Virus record (IMG/VR): IMGVR_UViG_3300045999_005135
Coordinates: 1 to 34,981 of that record
Origin: a virus
Length of the DNA stretch: 34,981 bases
Strand: one strand, 5' to 3'
In this document: piece after piece, positions 19,643 to 26,311 of the stretch
Numbering within the stretch: position 1 is the stretch's first letter
Layout of the letters: each line of letters begins with the position of its first letter
Notes under the pieces: generated by a model
Database searches by the model: none
What the model was told of the DNA's origin: nothing
The model's input: only the letters and a program-made list of their open reading frames with translations
Position numbers and translations under genes: made by a program

Positions 19643-20440
19643 TCAAGCGATCTCCTTTTCTCTGTATTTCAAAATTCGTTTCATTTGTTGGATCATTTTT
19701 GTGATGACGACTGCTTTGGCCGATGCAATCTCGTTCTCAGGGATAACTTGCGATGCCCACGGTGTGGAGTTCGTAAGCTGCACGGATGGGTTGCTGGCAT
19801 TGCGCGAGCGATCCTGCACCGATCCACTGCCTGTGTTGCGTGTCACCCAGCCGGGAATGCCGCGAGTCATCGATCCTTGGACTACCTGCGGGAGTTGTTT
19901 TGCACACTCAGCCCATCCTGCCTTGGACAAACCGACGAGCTTAATCACACTGGTAATGTAGGAGTTAAGCTCCCCCTGTTTTGCAATTGTCAGATTCGTG
20001 CCGCGAGATTTCGTGCGGCCTGTGGTGCTGTTTCTCGCTGCCCTGTGAGTGCTCTTGATAGCCCCGCCAGAAATGATCTCCATGCCACCCCAAGTCTTTA
20101 GAAAACCGATATTGGAAAAGACCTTCTCTACGACATCAAACCTGCCGCCAGAGACCAAGGATAACAACCTGCCGCGTATTTTTTCGGCGTTGACCCGTGA
20201 TGCCATCTGGGTCAGTTGCTCTCCGGTCTTGATAATTTTGCCGATGTCTTTCGTTGTGCGTTCTTCCCCAGCCACCCGCGCTTTGTTATCATCCCCGAAC
20301 GGTTGGGTTCGCCGTGCTAATTCGACGCAGAGGAGCCGTGCACTTGCGACGACTGCGTCAGGGATTGTTTGCTCCCGTATCTGTGCGTAATCGGTCAAAA
20401 TGTTTTCTAATTTTGTCGCTGTAAATTTGAATTTAGGCAT
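19643..20440 (-). CDS. Minor tail protein before the tape measure
   Basis: A 265-residue basic protein placed between the tail assembly chaperone and the tape measure. The first 60 residues are helical, a Lys/Arg-rich centre follows (RAARNSTTGRTKSRG), and the last 30 are helical (AVVITKMIQQMKRILKYREK). No motif allows a firm family. It may be a tail minor or tube-associated protein. Its ATG lies inside the end of the frameshift extension, with AAAAGG just upstream. Confidence 0.55.
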   Translation of the reverse strand: MPKFKFTATKLENILTDYAQIREQTIPDAVVASARLLCVELARRTQPFGDDNKARVAGEERTTKDIGKIIKTGEQLTQMASRVNAEKIRGRLLSLVSGGRFDVVEKVFSNIGFLKTWGGMEIISGGAIKSTHRAARNSTTGRTKSRGTNLTIAKQGELNSYITSVIKLVGLSKAGWAECAKQLPQVVQGSMTRGIPGWVTRNTGSGSVQDRSRNASNPSVQLTNSTPWASQVIPENEIASAKAVVITKMIQQMKRILKYREKEIA

Positions 20441-20668
20441 TGCCTTTTAATACGGCATCGAGTGCTGCGTCTATTGAGGCGAGAGCGTCAACCGATGCCG
20501 TCGTGCGGTTGCGCGTCCATCTCGGTTTGCGGCCGGTCGCGAGCGAGTCGCAGAACAAAATCTGCAATCCTGCCGCAAACGGAACCTCCTCCATACATTC
20601 GCGAAAGCCCCAGCCGGTCGCCTTTGCAAGCCTGTAAACATAGCCTGCGAGCCAACCAGGGCCGCTTA
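20433..20668 (-). CDS. Tail assembly chaperone frameshift extension (GT-like)
   Basis: A 78-residue frame without its own usable start codon, in the -1 frame of the upstream gene. It reads LSGPGWLAGYVYRLAKATGW, continues through EEVPFAAGLQILFCDSL and ends DAVLKGNA. It becomes joined to the 128-residue upstream product by a slip on A AAA AAC, to give about 206 residues. The protein-like sequence in this frame, and none in the others, supports it. As with lambda G/GT, the extension would link the chaperone to tail tube or tape measure. The only in-frame ATG lies at residue 26 of the extension. Confidence 0.8.
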
Positions 20669-21052
20669 GTTTTTTGAGCCGTTTCCTGATGTCTCGCTGG
20701 ACGCAGCAGCGTAGCGTTCAAAAGCCTTCGCCATGATGGATGCAATTGCATTCATTTCGCTGTGATGGACGACATTTTTATCCATCCAAGAATCCACGGC
20801 GTTGAGAAAATCTTCCCTGTCGTTCACGCTTTTCTGAATCTCTGAGCGTGGTGCGGAGTGTAGGAATGCAAATGCTGCCGACTTCCAAATTAAGTCTTTA
20901 TCGTCTGCGAAAACTTGATTGCGTTGCATCCAACTCACGCTGAGTGCGGTGATCGGGCGGAGTTCAAGGCCTCCAAATTTCATCGGCCCCTCTGTCATCC
21001 CCTCTTCGCGGAGGATGTCGTCATCCTTTTCCATATCTCTGTTTTTTTTCAT
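20666..21052 (-). CDS. Tail assembly chaperone (G-like)
   Basis: A 128-residue protein, acidic at the N-terminus (MKKNRDMEKDDDILREEGMT), with a helical core (WKSAAFAFLHSAPRSEI) and ending SETSGNGSKN. Position immediately upstream of the tape measure region, size and the slippery site before the stop mark it as the short form of the tail assembly chaperone. It starts with ATGA overlap; an in-frame ATG at 21034 is an alternative. Confidence 0.78.
   Translation of the reverse strand: MKKNRDMEKDDDILREEGMTEGPMKFGGLELRPITALSVSWMQRNQVFADDKDLIWKSAAFAFLHSAPRSEIQKSVNDREDFLNAVDSWMDKNVVHHSEMNAIASIMAKAFERYAAASSETSGNGSKN
20669..20675 (-). promoter_or_regulatory. -1 ribosomal frameshift site A AAA AAC
   Basis: The minus-strand heptamer A AAA AAC lies in the correct phase: the last two sense codons of the short chaperone are AAA AAC and the next is TAA. 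Slipping back one base places the ribosome in the open frame ending at 20433. This heptamer is one of the best-known bacterial -1 slippery sequences. Confidence 0.85.
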
Positions 21053-21459
21053 AATTTTGTAGCAAGAATCTTTTTGTCGGCATCAGTCGCGTCTTCGCGA
21101 ATCGCAATGCGTTTGCCATTTCGCTCGATAATGATGCGCCTTGGTGTGCCGTGGACGAGATCAACAAGCGTGTCACGGTTGAGTAAAGCAGCCCGGATGT
21201 AGTTAATCGGGTTCTCTGGGTCGGATGCGTCGAGTGCATCGCCTTCCTTCGTCATTCCCAGCACGACATCGCGTGCCTTTGCGCCTGTGGTAGAGAGATC
21301 GTCAAACCAGAAAATGGTTGATTCTTTTCCGTCCGGGCGAACCATTCGAGTGACTGGTTCTGGTTGCTTCATCGCAAATCCCATTGTTGCGAGAGCGGTT
21401 GCGACCTTGATATTCGCGGTGTAAAAATATGTTTCTTTGTCGTTGTATGTTTCGATCAT
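21049..21459 (-). CDS. Hypothetical tail-module protein
   Basis: A 136-residue protein between the tail tube candidate and the chaperone. The N-terminus MIETYNDKETYFYTANIKVA looks like a small alpha/beta domain; the C-terminus has VDLVHGTPRRIIIERNGKRI. Function unknown. The start at 21459 is preferred over the upstream Met because the extra residues read as non-coding. ATGA overlap with the chaperone gene. Confidence 0.6.
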   Translation of the reverse strand: MIETYNDKETYFYTANIKVATALATMGFAMKQPEPVTRMVRPDGKESTIFWFDDLSTTGAKARDVVLGMTKEGDALDASDPENPINYIRAALLNRDTLVDLVHGTPRRIIIERNGKRIAIREDATDADKKILATKL

Positions 21460-21531: not shown

Positions 21532-21903
21532 TTAGAGCGAGGGATACTGAGTCGCCTCGATCGAGAGGGTCTTGAAGGCATCAGAGCCTTGCTCAGAGGA
21601 GACAGAATCGACAACGATCTTGCCGCCGGTCACACCGAACTCGGTTGTTGTATTTGCAAGCGTAAGCAGCCCGCCGATTGTGGCAGTTGCAACGCCTGAC
21701 GATCCATTGATCGCACCTGTCAAAGAGATTGTGGCGGTCCGCCCGTAGTGAGATACTGCAACGATGTCGCCATCTTCGTCCATGAGTTCAGCTTTTTGCG
21801 ACTGAACGGAACGAGAAAACGAGGAGAGGATGATGCCGGTTTCGGCGGTGGCGCCGAAGATTACACTTGCGGCGGTAGATGATGTGATAACAGATGCGGC
21901 CAT
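21532..21903 (-). CDS. Tail tube protein candidate
   Basis: A 123-residue beta-rich protein. GIILSSFSRSVQSQKAELMD followed by DIVAVSHYGRTATISLTG fits small tail tube-like beta-barrel proteins. It lies between the tail completion gene and the assembly chaperone, where the major tail protein is normally found. Shorter than many major tail proteins, so the call is moderate. Confidence 0.6.
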   Translation of the reverse strand: MAASVITSSTAASVIFGATAETGIILSSFSRSVQSQKAELMDEDGDIVAVSHYGRTATISLTGAINGSSGVATATIGGLLTLANTTTEFGVTGGKIVVDSVSSEQGSDAFKTLSIEATQYPSL

Positions 21904-22406: not shown

Positions 22407-22714
22407 TTGTTTAGGTCTTCGAGTGAAAAGTCGACCGACACGGCATCTTGTGAAAGCTCTGCTGACAGCACACGAAACTTAGCTCCGTCGATTGTGAGCG
22501 TGTCGCCAAGCTGGATGAGTTGCGTGGTCGTATCGTAAGCGGTAGTTATCGACATTGAAACAGTGCTCATAAATCCACCGTCACCAAGATTGTTCTCGCG
22601 CCGAAACGCAGTGCGTGCAGATTGGAATGTCTTGCCTTCGTGCGAGACCGTAATTGGAAGCTCTCCAACAATGGCAGAGAGGTCGGATCGCATGAAGTCG
22701 GCAAGTGTGTTCAT
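22403..22714 (-). CDS. Head-tail joining protein (gpFII-like)
   Basis: A 103-residue protein starting MNTLADFMRSDLSAIVGELP, followed by beta segments (TVSHEGKTFQSARTAF) and LGDTLTIDGAKFRVLSAE, a pattern of lambda FII-like head closure proteins. It would connect the capsid to the finished tail. Its ATG overlaps the preceding glycosyltransferase stop (ATGA). Confidence 0.65.
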   Translation of the reverse strand: MNTLADFMRSDLSAIVGELPITVSHEGKTFQSARTAFRRENNLGDGGFMSTVSMSITTAYDTTTQLIQLGDTLTIDGAKFRVLSAELSQDAVSVDFSLEDLNK

Positions 22715-23406
22715 ATCAGGCCGGTAGCCTTGCAAAGCCGCTCGTATTCACTGCCCTTGGCAGGCTTCTCCTTACTCGTGTTGTGAGTCGCGTTGCTCCA
22801 GTGAATTATATCGTAGGTCTGCGCTGCCGGGTGCGTGTATGGTGATTCGGGAACACCGCCACAATCGAAGTAATTTTCAAAGGTATTAACCGCCAGCCCT
22901 TGGAAAACCAACTGGCGAAACATCGCCACCATCGCTTCGTGCCAGTTGCGCCCTGCCATCCCGTCCACAAGCATGCGCTCGATGATTTGCTTCATGCTGG
23001 CGGCGTATGCGCTGCCCTTGGGGATCGACATAACGACAGGCGAAACCATCGAAAGCCACGGAGTGAAGGTGTAGTCCTCGGCAACGATTGGCTTAGTTAT
23101 CGCTGCATCCATCTGCACCCAGATTCCACCGTGCTCGTGCAGAGTTTTGAATGCAAAATAGTCGCTCCAATGTGCGAGCGATCCGATGCCCCCATTCGGC
23201 AAGTGGTGCAACGGATCGCCCGCGAAGCCGACGGGCGGCAGTGTGTCTTTTGGTAGCATCTCAACGGTCACACCTTTTGGAATGCCGGCGAGTTTTGACT
23301 GCACCCACAGCACCGGGTCGTGACCTGCGTCAATCAAAAGCTGTAAGGTCAATTTTTCCATCAGGCCGAGCTTCGTCCCGATCCACACTGAATGCGTCTG
23401 TGTCAT
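22711..23406 (-). CDS. DXD-type glycosyltransferase (GT32-like)
   Basis: A 231-residue enzyme related to the sugar-binding DXD glycosyltransferases. The signature is HWSDYFAFKTLHEHGGIWVQ followed by MDAAITKP: the family's GG-x-Y-x-D-x-D with the first Asp replaced by Gln (QMD). KGSAYAASMKQII is the next conserved segment. It probably transfers a sugar to a phage particle protein or a host glycan. It is the last gene of the sugar cassette and is translationally coupled to both neighbours. Confidence 0.72.
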   Translation of the reverse strand: MTQTHSVWIGTKLGLMEKLTLQLLIDAGHDPVLWVQSKLAGIPKGVTVEMLPKDTLPPVGFAGDPLHHLPNGGIGSLAHWSDYFAFKTLHEHGGIWVQMDAAITKPIVAEDYTFTPWLSMVSPVVMSIPKGSAYAASMKQIIERMLVDGMAGRNWHEAMVAMFRQLVFQGLAVNTFENYFDCGGVPESPYTHPAAQTYDIIHWSNATHNTSKEKPAKGSEYERLCKATGLI

Positions 23407-24566
23407 CTCCTTGCGAGGATTGTCAATCCGTTGCAGTTTTCGTAGTGCTCCGCAACCTTCCAATGGGGGTTGATTTCCATCCATGCGTGGATGGCTTCGT
23501 TGATGCCTCTGCCGTTGTCCTCTCCCACAGCTCCGAACGCGACCGTGTCGTGAAACACGATGTATTTGCTTGCTTGGTTGCCGTGCTTTTGAAGCTCGCC
23601 TTTTACCTGATCATAGGAATGGAGCGTGTCGATAAACAAAAGCTCCGTCGGCTCGATCATCGGAATGTCGAGCGTTGACCCTTGCGTAAAAGTCCAGTCC
23701 GTATCGAGTTGGTTGTGGATCGCGTAGACATTAAAGAAGTCGTGCAGATCGTGGCTTCGCAGAACTGCCTTTGGATTGTCGCTCAGTCCGTGCAGGAACG
23801 AATATGTTGACATGCCGGTGCGAACTCCAAACTCGGTGACGTGGTCACACTCCGCCGCGAGCTGCGAAAGGCGAACCATGTGCTCGTTGATGTCGCCTAC
23901 AATCCCACGGCTGCGGTGAAATATATTAGAGATCGGCCACGTCTTGGAAAACACACGCGATCCGAAATCGTAAGCAAGGCGAGAGTTTTGGATTTTCACG
24001 ATGTCATCTTCGTCTCTGCTGCCGTTGCTCGGATGGTCGTGCTGCCATTGCAATCCTTTCACGGACAGGATTGGAGCCTTGAGCATTGCCCGATTCGTGA
24101 AGTCATTGTCGCAAAAAACTCCGTGGTATTTCGGACAAAAAACATATTCAAGATGGTCGTAGAGTGCGCGAGACAGCACGGGATGACACATAAGACCGTC
24201 CTGACGAACGGAGTCTGGGACATAGCAAGACCATTTTTGCTTCGGGTCTGGCAGCTTGCGAAGTTGGGTATCCCAGCCCTGCGGGGGCGTGAGATCGTCG
24301 GCAATCACCACTAAAATATCCCCTGTGGAAAACTGAGCGCAGACATTCCAGTTTGCCACGCTTGACGAGGCCCACGCTGGCGGTGGCGTGGTGCACCACC
24401 AGTAAGCCTGTGCCACTGTAAATGCCTTGATGCTTTCCATGTCGTCGCTCTGGATTCCAAAGATATGCTCAACCTGAGCGGCATCATCCGCCCGGTCGAT
24501 CCATATTTTGCGTGTTGCGAGTGCGCGTTCTGGCGTGCCACGGGTGGCGTGAAGTAGTGAGATCAT
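23403..24566 (-). CDS. Glycosyltransferase-methyltransferase fusion
   Basis: A 387-residue two-domain protein. Residues 1-200 are a GT-A-like domain (ISLLHATRGTPERA; TGDILVVIADDLTPPQGWD with Asp90-Asp91). Residues 228-387 resemble a SAM-dependent methyltransferase of the CmcI/Methyltransf_24 type: TEFGVRTGMSTYSF (motif I, 244-257), LLFIDTLHSYDQVKGEL (309-325), YIVFHDT (335-341), and NGLTILARR at the end. The first domain is a paralogue of the C-terminal domain of the upstream glycosyltransferase. It may add and then methylate a sugar. ATGA overlaps on both sides. Confidence 0.78.
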   Translation of the reverse strand: MISLLHATRGTPERALATRKIWIDRADDAAQVEHIFGIQSDDMESIKAFTVAQAYWWCTTPPPAWASSSVANWNVCAQFSTGDILVVIADDLTPPQGWDTQLRKLPDPKQKWSCYVPDSVRQDGLMCHPVLSRALYDHLEYVFCPKYHGVFCDNDFTNRAMLKAPILSVKGLQWQHDHPSNGSRDEDDIVKIQNSRLAYDFGSRVFSKTWPISNIFHRSRGIVGDINEHMVRLSQLAAECDHVTEFGVRTGMSTYSFLHGLSDNPKAVLRSHDLHDFFNVYAIHNQLDTDWTFTQGSTLDIPMIEPTELLFIDTLHSYDQVKGELQKHGNQASKYIVFHDTVAFGAVGEDNGRGINEAIHAWMEINPHWKVAEHYENCNGLTILARR

Positions 24567-26284
24567 TTTATTGTGTTGTTTATTTCGTTGTTTATTTGGT
24601 TGAAAAGTTTTTCCGCACGCTCTCTCTCCACAGGTTCCGCCACCCTCCGATATGTATCGTCGAGCGAACGATTCTCAAAAGCCGGGTGGTGATGAACGAG
24701 AGCAATGTCACGACCATTAATGATCGCTCCAGCCTTCGCGGCACGAACGGTGAAGTCCGCATCACTAAATTGGTTTTTGAATCTGGGGTCGAAGAGTCCG
24801 TGTTGCTCATAATATTTTCGAGTGATAATTGCCATCGTGATCAGTTCGTCAGTTCGATACCCGTCGTTTGTTCGCAGAACCTGCGCTGCGCTTGTATCCA
24901 TACGGTCGTCCAGCATATCATCCCATCCAGGAGGCGGCTCGATGTCGTCCGAAAGTTGTATCAAAATCTCGCCCGTGCAGTTCTGCGCCGCGAGATTCCA
25001 AGCACCGACTGAAAAGCCACCCGTGGTCTGCACTACTCCGCCGAATCGGTTGAGGGTTGCTGCTGTTTCGTCGTCATAATCGACGGTAAAGATGTGCTCG
25101 ACTCGCTCCGGATTGTTTGCTCGCTGAAGCCACAAGGTCATATTCTGGATTGCTGCAATCGGTCTCCCACGGGTCGCATGCAGCAACGATATGCGTGTGC
25201 CCTGTGCTTCGCGCAGGATCGCTTGATCGACCGCAAACGCTCCTTGTGCATCACCAAGCTCACGCAAGCACCATCCGCGCAACTTGCGGGCCTTCCATCC
25301 ATACCACTCTTTTTTGTGCGTCCACTGAGGGAACGAAGGCACTGGTATTTTTTCCATCGCATCCACAATTTCCAGCGCGGCTTCCGACTCTCCGCAATCG
25401 AGCAAGATCGACGCTTCGATCGCGTAGGCTTCGCGTCTGTTGAGATCGAGTGCCTTTGCGCGGCGAGCAAGCTTTAGAGCCGAATCGGTGTGGCTCATGT
25501 TGCTCAAATTAAGAAGCACTTCGTAGCGGTGGACTGCGTCAAGATCACGCAGTGCAAGAGACTCCGCGCCGTAGCGCAAAGCGTTCTCGGTGTCTCCAAC
25601 AATCATCCGCTCGTAGTGCAGGTAAAATTTGAAATGCGACGACATCCGATCGTGGTGTGCGAGGATGCGTAGGTTGCGGTCGTTGCTGGGCCTGCGTCCG
25701 AGAGCAGGCCGGTGCTCAATCTCCAAATCGCGGCGGAGAAGAATCTTGCGTGGCAGCGGCTCGCCATCTTCACCGCTTGGGGGGTGTGCGTTCTCGTGGA
25801 CAGGTCTCCACCACCAGGCTGAATCTTTGCGAAAGAACCGCTCGCGTGGGGCGCGCTTGCCCTGTTCGGTGATGACGTAGTCGGTGAGCACCCAGTGCAC
25901 TTCGGGATTGACTTCGCGGAGCATCTTCAGATGCGGCTCAACCATGTTCTCGGCAAGCACATCGTCGCAGTCTGCCCACATGACCCAGTCGCCGTCATCA
26001 ATCAGCGAATATGCGATTTCAAAAGCATCATTTCTCGCGGCAGCAAAGTCGTCCACATGCGGCCACGATCCACACAGCGGAGAGTTGCGATACTCGCTGA
26101 CCCTGCACCCAAGCCCCTCAGCAATGTCCAAGGTTGCGTCCGGCTTTAGACTACCGATGGCTCGCACAACCACGATCTCGTTGCAGATTTTTTGCAGCGA
26201 TAAAACGCATCGCTCGATTCTTTCTTCTTCATTGCCGCAAATTAGAGCGGCTACCAAACGCGGTTGTGTGCTCATCTTCCCCAT
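24563..26284 (-). CDS. Two-domain glycosyltransferase with helical linker
   Basis: A 573-residue protein. Residues 3-210 form a GT2 domain (PRLVAALICGNEEERIERCV; MWADCDD as the metal-binding Asp motif). A helical region (about 215-360) looks TPR-like (residues such as SALKLARRAKALDLNRREAY). A second GT-A domain starts at ISLLHATRGRPIAA and has TGEILIQLSDDIEPPPGWDD. The second domain is closely similar to the start of the next gene. Start choice: the ATG at 26284 has AAGG 9 nt upstream; 26293 and 26275 are alternatives. It lies downstream of the capsid terminator. Confidence 0.78.
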   Translation of the reverse strand: MGKMSTQPRLVAALICGNEEERIERCVLSLQKICNEIVVVRAIGSLKPDATLDIAEGLGCRVSEYRNSPLCGSWPHVDDFAAARNDAFEIAYSLIDDGDWVMWADCDDVLAENMVEPHLKMLREVNPEVHWVLTDYVITEQGKRAPRERFFRKDSAWWWRPVHENAHPPSGEDGEPLPRKILLRRDLEIEHRPALGRRPSNDRNLRILAHHDRMSSHFKFYLHYERMIVGDTENALRYGAESLALRDLDAVHRYEVLLNLSNMSHTDSALKLARRAKALDLNRREAYAIEASILLDCGESEAALEIVDAMEKIPVPSFPQWTHKKEWYGWKARKLRGWCLRELGDAQGAFAVDQAILREAQGTRISLLHATRGRPIAAIQNMTLWLQRANNPERVEHIFTVDYDDETAATLNRFGGVVQTTGGFSVGAWNLAAQNCTGEILIQLSDDIEPPPGWDDMLDDRMDTSAAQVLRTNDGYRTDELITMAIITRKYYEQHGLFDPRFKNQFSDADFTVRAAKAGAIINGRDIALVHHHPAFENRSLDDTYRRVAEPVERERAEKLFNQINNEINNTIK

Positions 26285-26311
26285 TGTTAGCATCCTTCAA
26301 GATTATTTGCG

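Follow-up and report, generated by a model that had tools for sequence, protein, structure and literature searches.

We found that a 34,981-base virus record (the window, meaning the whole stretch of DNA analysed) very probably encodes, on its minus strand, a −1 programmed ribosomal frameshift cassette of the G/GT type, as judged from comparison with its relatives. The short G-like gene terminates in TCA AAA AAC TAA, and the −1 frame begins with CTA (20669-20667), runs for 78 codons to a stop at 20435-20433 and overlaps the next gene, whose ATG is at 20440, by 8 nt. The sequence-only reading had proposed the heptamer A AAA AAC at 20669-20675 in the right phase, a slip site touching the stop codon, and products of 128 and about 206 residues. 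The heptamer indeed lies there, on the minus strand, TAA directly abuts it, and the computed products comprise 128 codons and a predicted fusion of 206 aa. The −1 frame was likewise said to stay open for 78 codons, to end just inside the next gene and to have no start before residue 26, all of which holds in the window, as its first ATG, GTG or TTG is codon 26. The junction peptide of the fusion would read ...SKNLSGPGWLAGYVYR in the window and ...GNLN[SG]P[GN]W in the relatives. The features are collected in Table 1.

Table 1. Features of the chaperone locus; positions refer to the window except in the last row
Feature	Position	Strand	Basis and remarks
Short tail assembly chaperone (G-like), putative	20666..21052	−	128 codons; ORF and translation; 43 aligned relatives at 32-96% identity
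ATG of G-like gene overlapping stop of upstream gene (ATGA)		−	
Slippery heptamer A AAA AAC, in phase	20669..20675	−	Sequence and relatives
0-frame stop TAA abutting heptamer	20666..20668	−	Stop at same position in every relative
−1 frame extension (T-like), 78 codons and stop	20433..20669	−	Translation; relatives 49-100% identical; codon-position pattern
5-nt spacer between heptamer and stem, first three bases the stop codon	20664..20668	−	Alignment
5′ arm of conserved 12-bp stem, putative stimulator	20652..20663	−	RNAalifold consensus, pair counts, held-out set
3′ arm of conserved 12-bp stem	20606..20617	−	RNAalifold consensus, pair counts, held-out set; codon 21 GGC in 43/44
Shine-Dalgarno-like AGGA upstream of heptamer	20684..20687	−	Motif scan; tentative
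Conserved upstream tail-module gene, 136 aa from first ATG	21049..21459	−	Matched in 156/161 loci
Probable tail tube (major tail) protein	21532..21903	−	By position only; gene order in 110/161 loci
265-aa gene between chaperone and tape measure	19643..20440	−	Matched in 132/161 loci
Tape-measure protein, 895 aa	16954..19641	−	PHROG tail length tape measure, E 3.5e-15
Pair in distant relatives, probable	L200:1421-1680, L201:1442-1716, L202:1442-1728 (reverse strand)		Other genomes of the same phylum

In the proposed mechanism, most ribosomes would translate AAA AAC, stop at the adjoining TAA and release the 128-aa chaperone, and a minority, paused by the stem-loop beginning 5 nt further on, would move back by one base, with both tRNAs re-pairing on AAA AAA, and would then read the −1 frame to yield the 206-aa fusion. 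If lambda is a guide, the short form would coat the tape measure, and the fusion would contribute an extra domain for recruiting the tail tube protein. We infer the slippage, its rate and the roles of the proteins from the sequences. Slippage in tandem at A AAA AAC would account for the retention of both heptamer triplets.

The relatives were collected by scanning IMG/VR with the −1 protein, which returned 30 loci, and with its alignment, which returned 80. A scan of GTDB genomes added L090, in a Verrucomicrobia MAG, and when 388 genomes from the phylum of this MAG were searched, a second clear member, L198, was added. These T-based searches thus gave 83 loci from IMG/VR and bacterial genomes, with T-region identities of 49-100%, and 82 of them had enough upstream sequence for the junction to be read. 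As a result, an in-phase X XXY YYZ heptamer was present in all 82 readable relatives, exactly where the sequence homology to the −1 protein begins, as GGGAAAC (73), AAAAAAC (6), CCCAAAC (2) or GGGAAAG (1). The junction of L198 reads GGGAAAG. Because these searches had used the −1 protein, the search was repeated with the 0-frame protein alone, and the heptamer was again found in 74 of 74 newly fetched loci, with T following in each of the 73 that were long enough. Many of the latter loci share contigs with the first set, and 94 distinct junctions remained after removal of near-identical ones. On the T-region tree, which is built from about 200 bases so that its counts are rough, the XXX triplet changed at least eight times and was never lost, and the second slip codon is nearly invariant AAC across the relatives. 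The heptamer is conserved far beyond chance. Homologues therefore bear out the expectation of the sequence-only reading that heptamer and frame would be conserved, the kind of heptamer being kept while its letters change (82/82 and 74/74), and its suggestion of a lambda-like G/GT chaperone frameshift is supported by the conserved heptamer, the frame relation and the gene order. As both L090 and L198 lie in Verrucomicrobiota genomes, the host phylum of the window phage is suggested to be Verrucomicrobiota, and the window probably derives from an uncultured tailed phage of this phylum.

The various forms of the heptamer also bear on transcriptional slippage, by which RNA polymerase would gain or lose an A in the A6 run, so that part of the mRNA enters the second frame. 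The window does contain six consecutive A, slippage on longer A runs occurs in bacteria, and a longer A run is present in the distant relative L200. However, most relatives have GGGAAAC or CCCAAAC at the same place, with three-base runs only, and all of the forms are explained only by the ribosomal X XXY YYZ rule; we thus consider polymerase slippage extremely improbable.

We then compared the codon positions of the −1 frame. Pairwise differences at positions 1, 2 and 3 were 0.20, 0.14 and 0.45 across the family, and 0.035, 0.015 and 0.16 among the closest relatives. The −1 frame thus shows protein-level evolution, with the coding pattern expected if, as had been claimed, this region reads as real protein. 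These rates fit the −1 frame and count against readthrough of the 0-frame stop codon as the source of the real extension. The 0 frame would continue for 65 codons past the stop in 24 of the 44 relatives, but its run-on lengths vary from 6 to 339 codons, and we give readthrough practically no credence. A further candidate frame, 20488-20751, was rejected because it starts inside G and because the frame relation and the codon pattern fit only −1.

Could the second frame instead be a separate gene, translated by reinitiation or from an internal start? Short frames beside a stop can be reinitiated, and the distant relative L201 has TGATG at the junction. However, none of the 44 non-redundant relatives has ATG, GTG or TTG from codons −14 to +6 of the T frame, and none has ATG from codons −14 to 25, half of them lacking it from −14 to the end. 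Since all 44 are devoid of a usable start, a separate T gene is unlikely; in addition, conservation starts right at the heptamer, and L202, which lacks the ATG of L201, nevertheless keeps CCCAAAC. Taken together, we regard independent translation of T as very improbable. The sequence-only reading had named homologues that lack a slippery site and start T independently as evidence against a frameshift; 0 of the 44 relatives are of this kind.

Beyond the features of that reading, the relatives revealed the abutting stop in every member and a conserved stem-loop downstream. RNAalifold analysis of 44 sequences placed the start of the stem 5 nt past the heptamer. When the stem was taken as 12 bp, 96.6% of cells formed standard pairs, versus 25-62% when the arms were slid by 1-3 columns, and in 24 held-out sequences 92% of cells were paired, versus 20-64% when slid. 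Double changes were observed at two of the stem pairs, GC to CG in L036 and GC to AU in eight sequences, and the compensatory change in L036 converts Ser AGC to TCC and Gly GGC to GGG, both silently. Because Pro and Trp codons also dictate the base at many positions of the stem, the strongest evidence for it is synonymous. Indeed, synonymous variation is suppressed at codons 1, 3, 4 and 21, those that form the stop and the stem: Pro codon 4 is CCC in 41 of 44 sequences, whereas all four codons are used at Pro codon 30; likewise, 43 of 44 have GGC at Gly codon 21, whereas Gly codon 34 varies. Furthermore, folding over 77 nt was on average stronger than in synonymous-codon controls (mean z −1.5, 95% below zero). 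The 12 stem positions of the window can pair, with several G-U pairs, and folding of the window itself was no stronger than in its synonymous controls (z 0.16 for 77 nt and 0.40 for 98 nt). A 3′ stimulatory structure is expected 5-9 nt past the heptamer (PMC5009743), a range into which this covarying 12-bp stem with its 5-nt spacer fits, and we regard it as a putative stimulator. A short hairpin directly after the heptamer was rejected, as windows of 35-47 nt fold no better than synonymous controls and the signal lies in the longer stem. On the upstream side, a Shine-Dalgarno-like motif occurs 6-17 nt before the heptamer in 24 of 44 relatives, compared with a shuffled mean of 6.6, although the members are related and the count is not independent; this motif is a tentative component of the signal.

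The stop codon lies directly 3′ of the heptamer, with zero bases between, in every relative (82/82 and 74/74), as TAA, TGA or TAG. On the same rough tree of about 200 bases, the identity of the stop changed at least 11 times, and the stop was never lost. Of the 44 non-redundant sequences, 43 begin the −1 frame with Leu, encoded in every case by CTA or CTG. CTC or CTT at this position would encode the same protein and remove the stop, and neither was ever seen. Elsewhere in T, Leu is encoded by CTC (138), CTT (41), CTG (40), TTG (28), CTA (19) and TTA (6).

These observations raise a variant of the frameshift model, in which slippage is coupled to termination: the shift would occur mainly post-translocation, with the stop in the A site, and the speed of the release factor would set the G:GT ratio, the peptide sequence being the same. 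It would be consistent with an abutting stop that is invariant although its identity is variable, and with the restriction of the first −1 codon to CTA or CTG in the 43 Leu cases, though in the rest of T CTA makes up just 19 of the 272 Leu codons. The sequence-only reading had likewise expected termination efficiency to influence the ratio of the products, and the invariance of the abutting stop makes such an influence plausible. At the HIV heptamer, a stop placed here rendered slippage in bacteria sensitive to release factor 2, which competed with it (PMC4373837). On the other hand, the stop lowered frameshifting on the full HIV element by about 70% in mammalian cells (PMC4373837), so it may just restrain the rate or end G, and more distant relatives lack an abutting stop. 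We therefore rate termination coupling as a minority possibility. Similarly tentative, and on present evidence rather doubtful, is the broader proposal that the abutting stop itself has a function within the signal, whereby slippage would take place partly with the stop in the A site, competition with the release factor would set the chaperone ratio, and a poor AAC site would be made workable in bacteria. The alignments are compatible with a stop that takes part in the slip mechanism, with one that acts as a brake, and with one that simply ends G.

The more distant relatives were matches from the 388 genomes, with E values of 4.6e-4 to 9.6e-7 per genome. In L201 and L202 the heptamer is CCCAAAC and the stop follows after 15 nt, the same distance as in lambda; L200 instead carries an A run, with its stop 126 nt away, and all three show the −1 relation. 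They are probable, though not certain, true relatives; if so, the abutting stop would be a trait of the window's clade, not of the whole superfamily. At L201:1510-1516, the T-frame ATG overlaps the G stop (TGATG), and since the related L202 is without this ATG, the overlap may reflect chance or a second route. Another distant match, L199, had no G-like gene evident upstream.

Returning to the ribosomal frameshift, slippage in E. coli is poor with AAC as the second slip codon (PMC4066793; PMC5009743), so that a clade of bacterial viruses would appear to rely on slip codons that perform poorly there. The linked Verrucomicrobia MAG encodes tRNA-Lys UUU and CUU and tRNA-Asn GUU. The CUU tRNA is expected to make AAG less slippery, and we conjecture that this may be why AAC is preferred.

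Finally, we examined the identity of the two proteins. The G and T of the window gave no significant match in PHROG or Pfam, and neither did 43 relatives of G and 34 of T in PHROG. A PDB profile search with G gave chance matches only. T had no tblastn match among 50,697 named phage records, and a consensus T gave chance matches only. G is predicted to be mostly helical (mean pLDDT 78), and T is predicted to form three helices (pLDDT 73, pTM 0.41). With Foldseek, G had no significant match in PDB or BFVD, and the matches of T in BFVD were chance ones only. In VIA-align, the best phage match of G was YqbN (3klu), which we take to be a tail chaperone, but the match was weak (Z 3.7, rmsd 5.8 over 95 residues), and an unrelated fungal domain ranked higher. 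From position and architecture, we conclude that G and T are a tail assembly chaperone pair, and the alignments strongly support their assignment to the established lambda G/GT type as a new family, unmatched by PHROGs or Pfam.

The position in question is between the tail-tube-like and tape-measure genes, of which the tape measure is firm and the tail tube is assigned by position only, with a 265-aa gene intervening; family searches gave no significant match for the 21532..21903 product or for the 265-aa gene. The full order, from the tail-tube-like gene through the 136-aa gene, G, T and the 265-aa gene to the tape measure, was found in 110 of 161 loci, and the loci with a shorter order were mostly cut by contig ends or had genes under the threshold. 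The same genome encodes a lambda-family portal, a terminase gpA nuclease domain and the tape-measure protein. The binding partner of G and GT in lambda is the tape measure, and that of T is the tail tube protein (PMC5009743); by analogy, the proteins of the window may act likewise.

The cassette resembles lambda G/GT (G GGA AAG) in its predicted short and −1 extended products, in the heptamer at the end of G, in its proximity to the tape-measure gene, and in a genome with a lambda-family portal and terminase. It differs in that the G stop is 15 nt past the heptamer in lambda but abuts it in the window, in the 265-aa gene between T and the tape measure, and in the lack of a sequence family match. 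HK97 gp13/gp14 is also a frameshifted tail chaperone, and is annotated as such. The same three heptamers are used for g-t frameshifting in viruses of archaea (PMC5009743), whose hosts differ. In the PRFect training set, the distance from the slippery site to the in-frame stop averages 26 nt (PMC10885494), compared with 0 in the window.

The family would add a frameshifted tail chaperone, linked to phages of Verrucomicrobiota and unrecognised by the protein-family libraries searched, with two unusual features, an abutting stop that never varies and an AAC slip codon that hardly ever does. In annotation, the −1 part would be overlooked or called a fragment. The 94 distinct junctions form a natural series, in which the slippery triplet and the stop have changed repeatedly and their adjacency has been kept, and this makes the competition of termination with slippage testable in a bacterial system. 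Elsewhere in the window, the region 22711-26293, between the capsid and tail genes, encodes a glycosyltransferase family 2 domain and a methyltransferase-like domain, which is unusual within a structural module.
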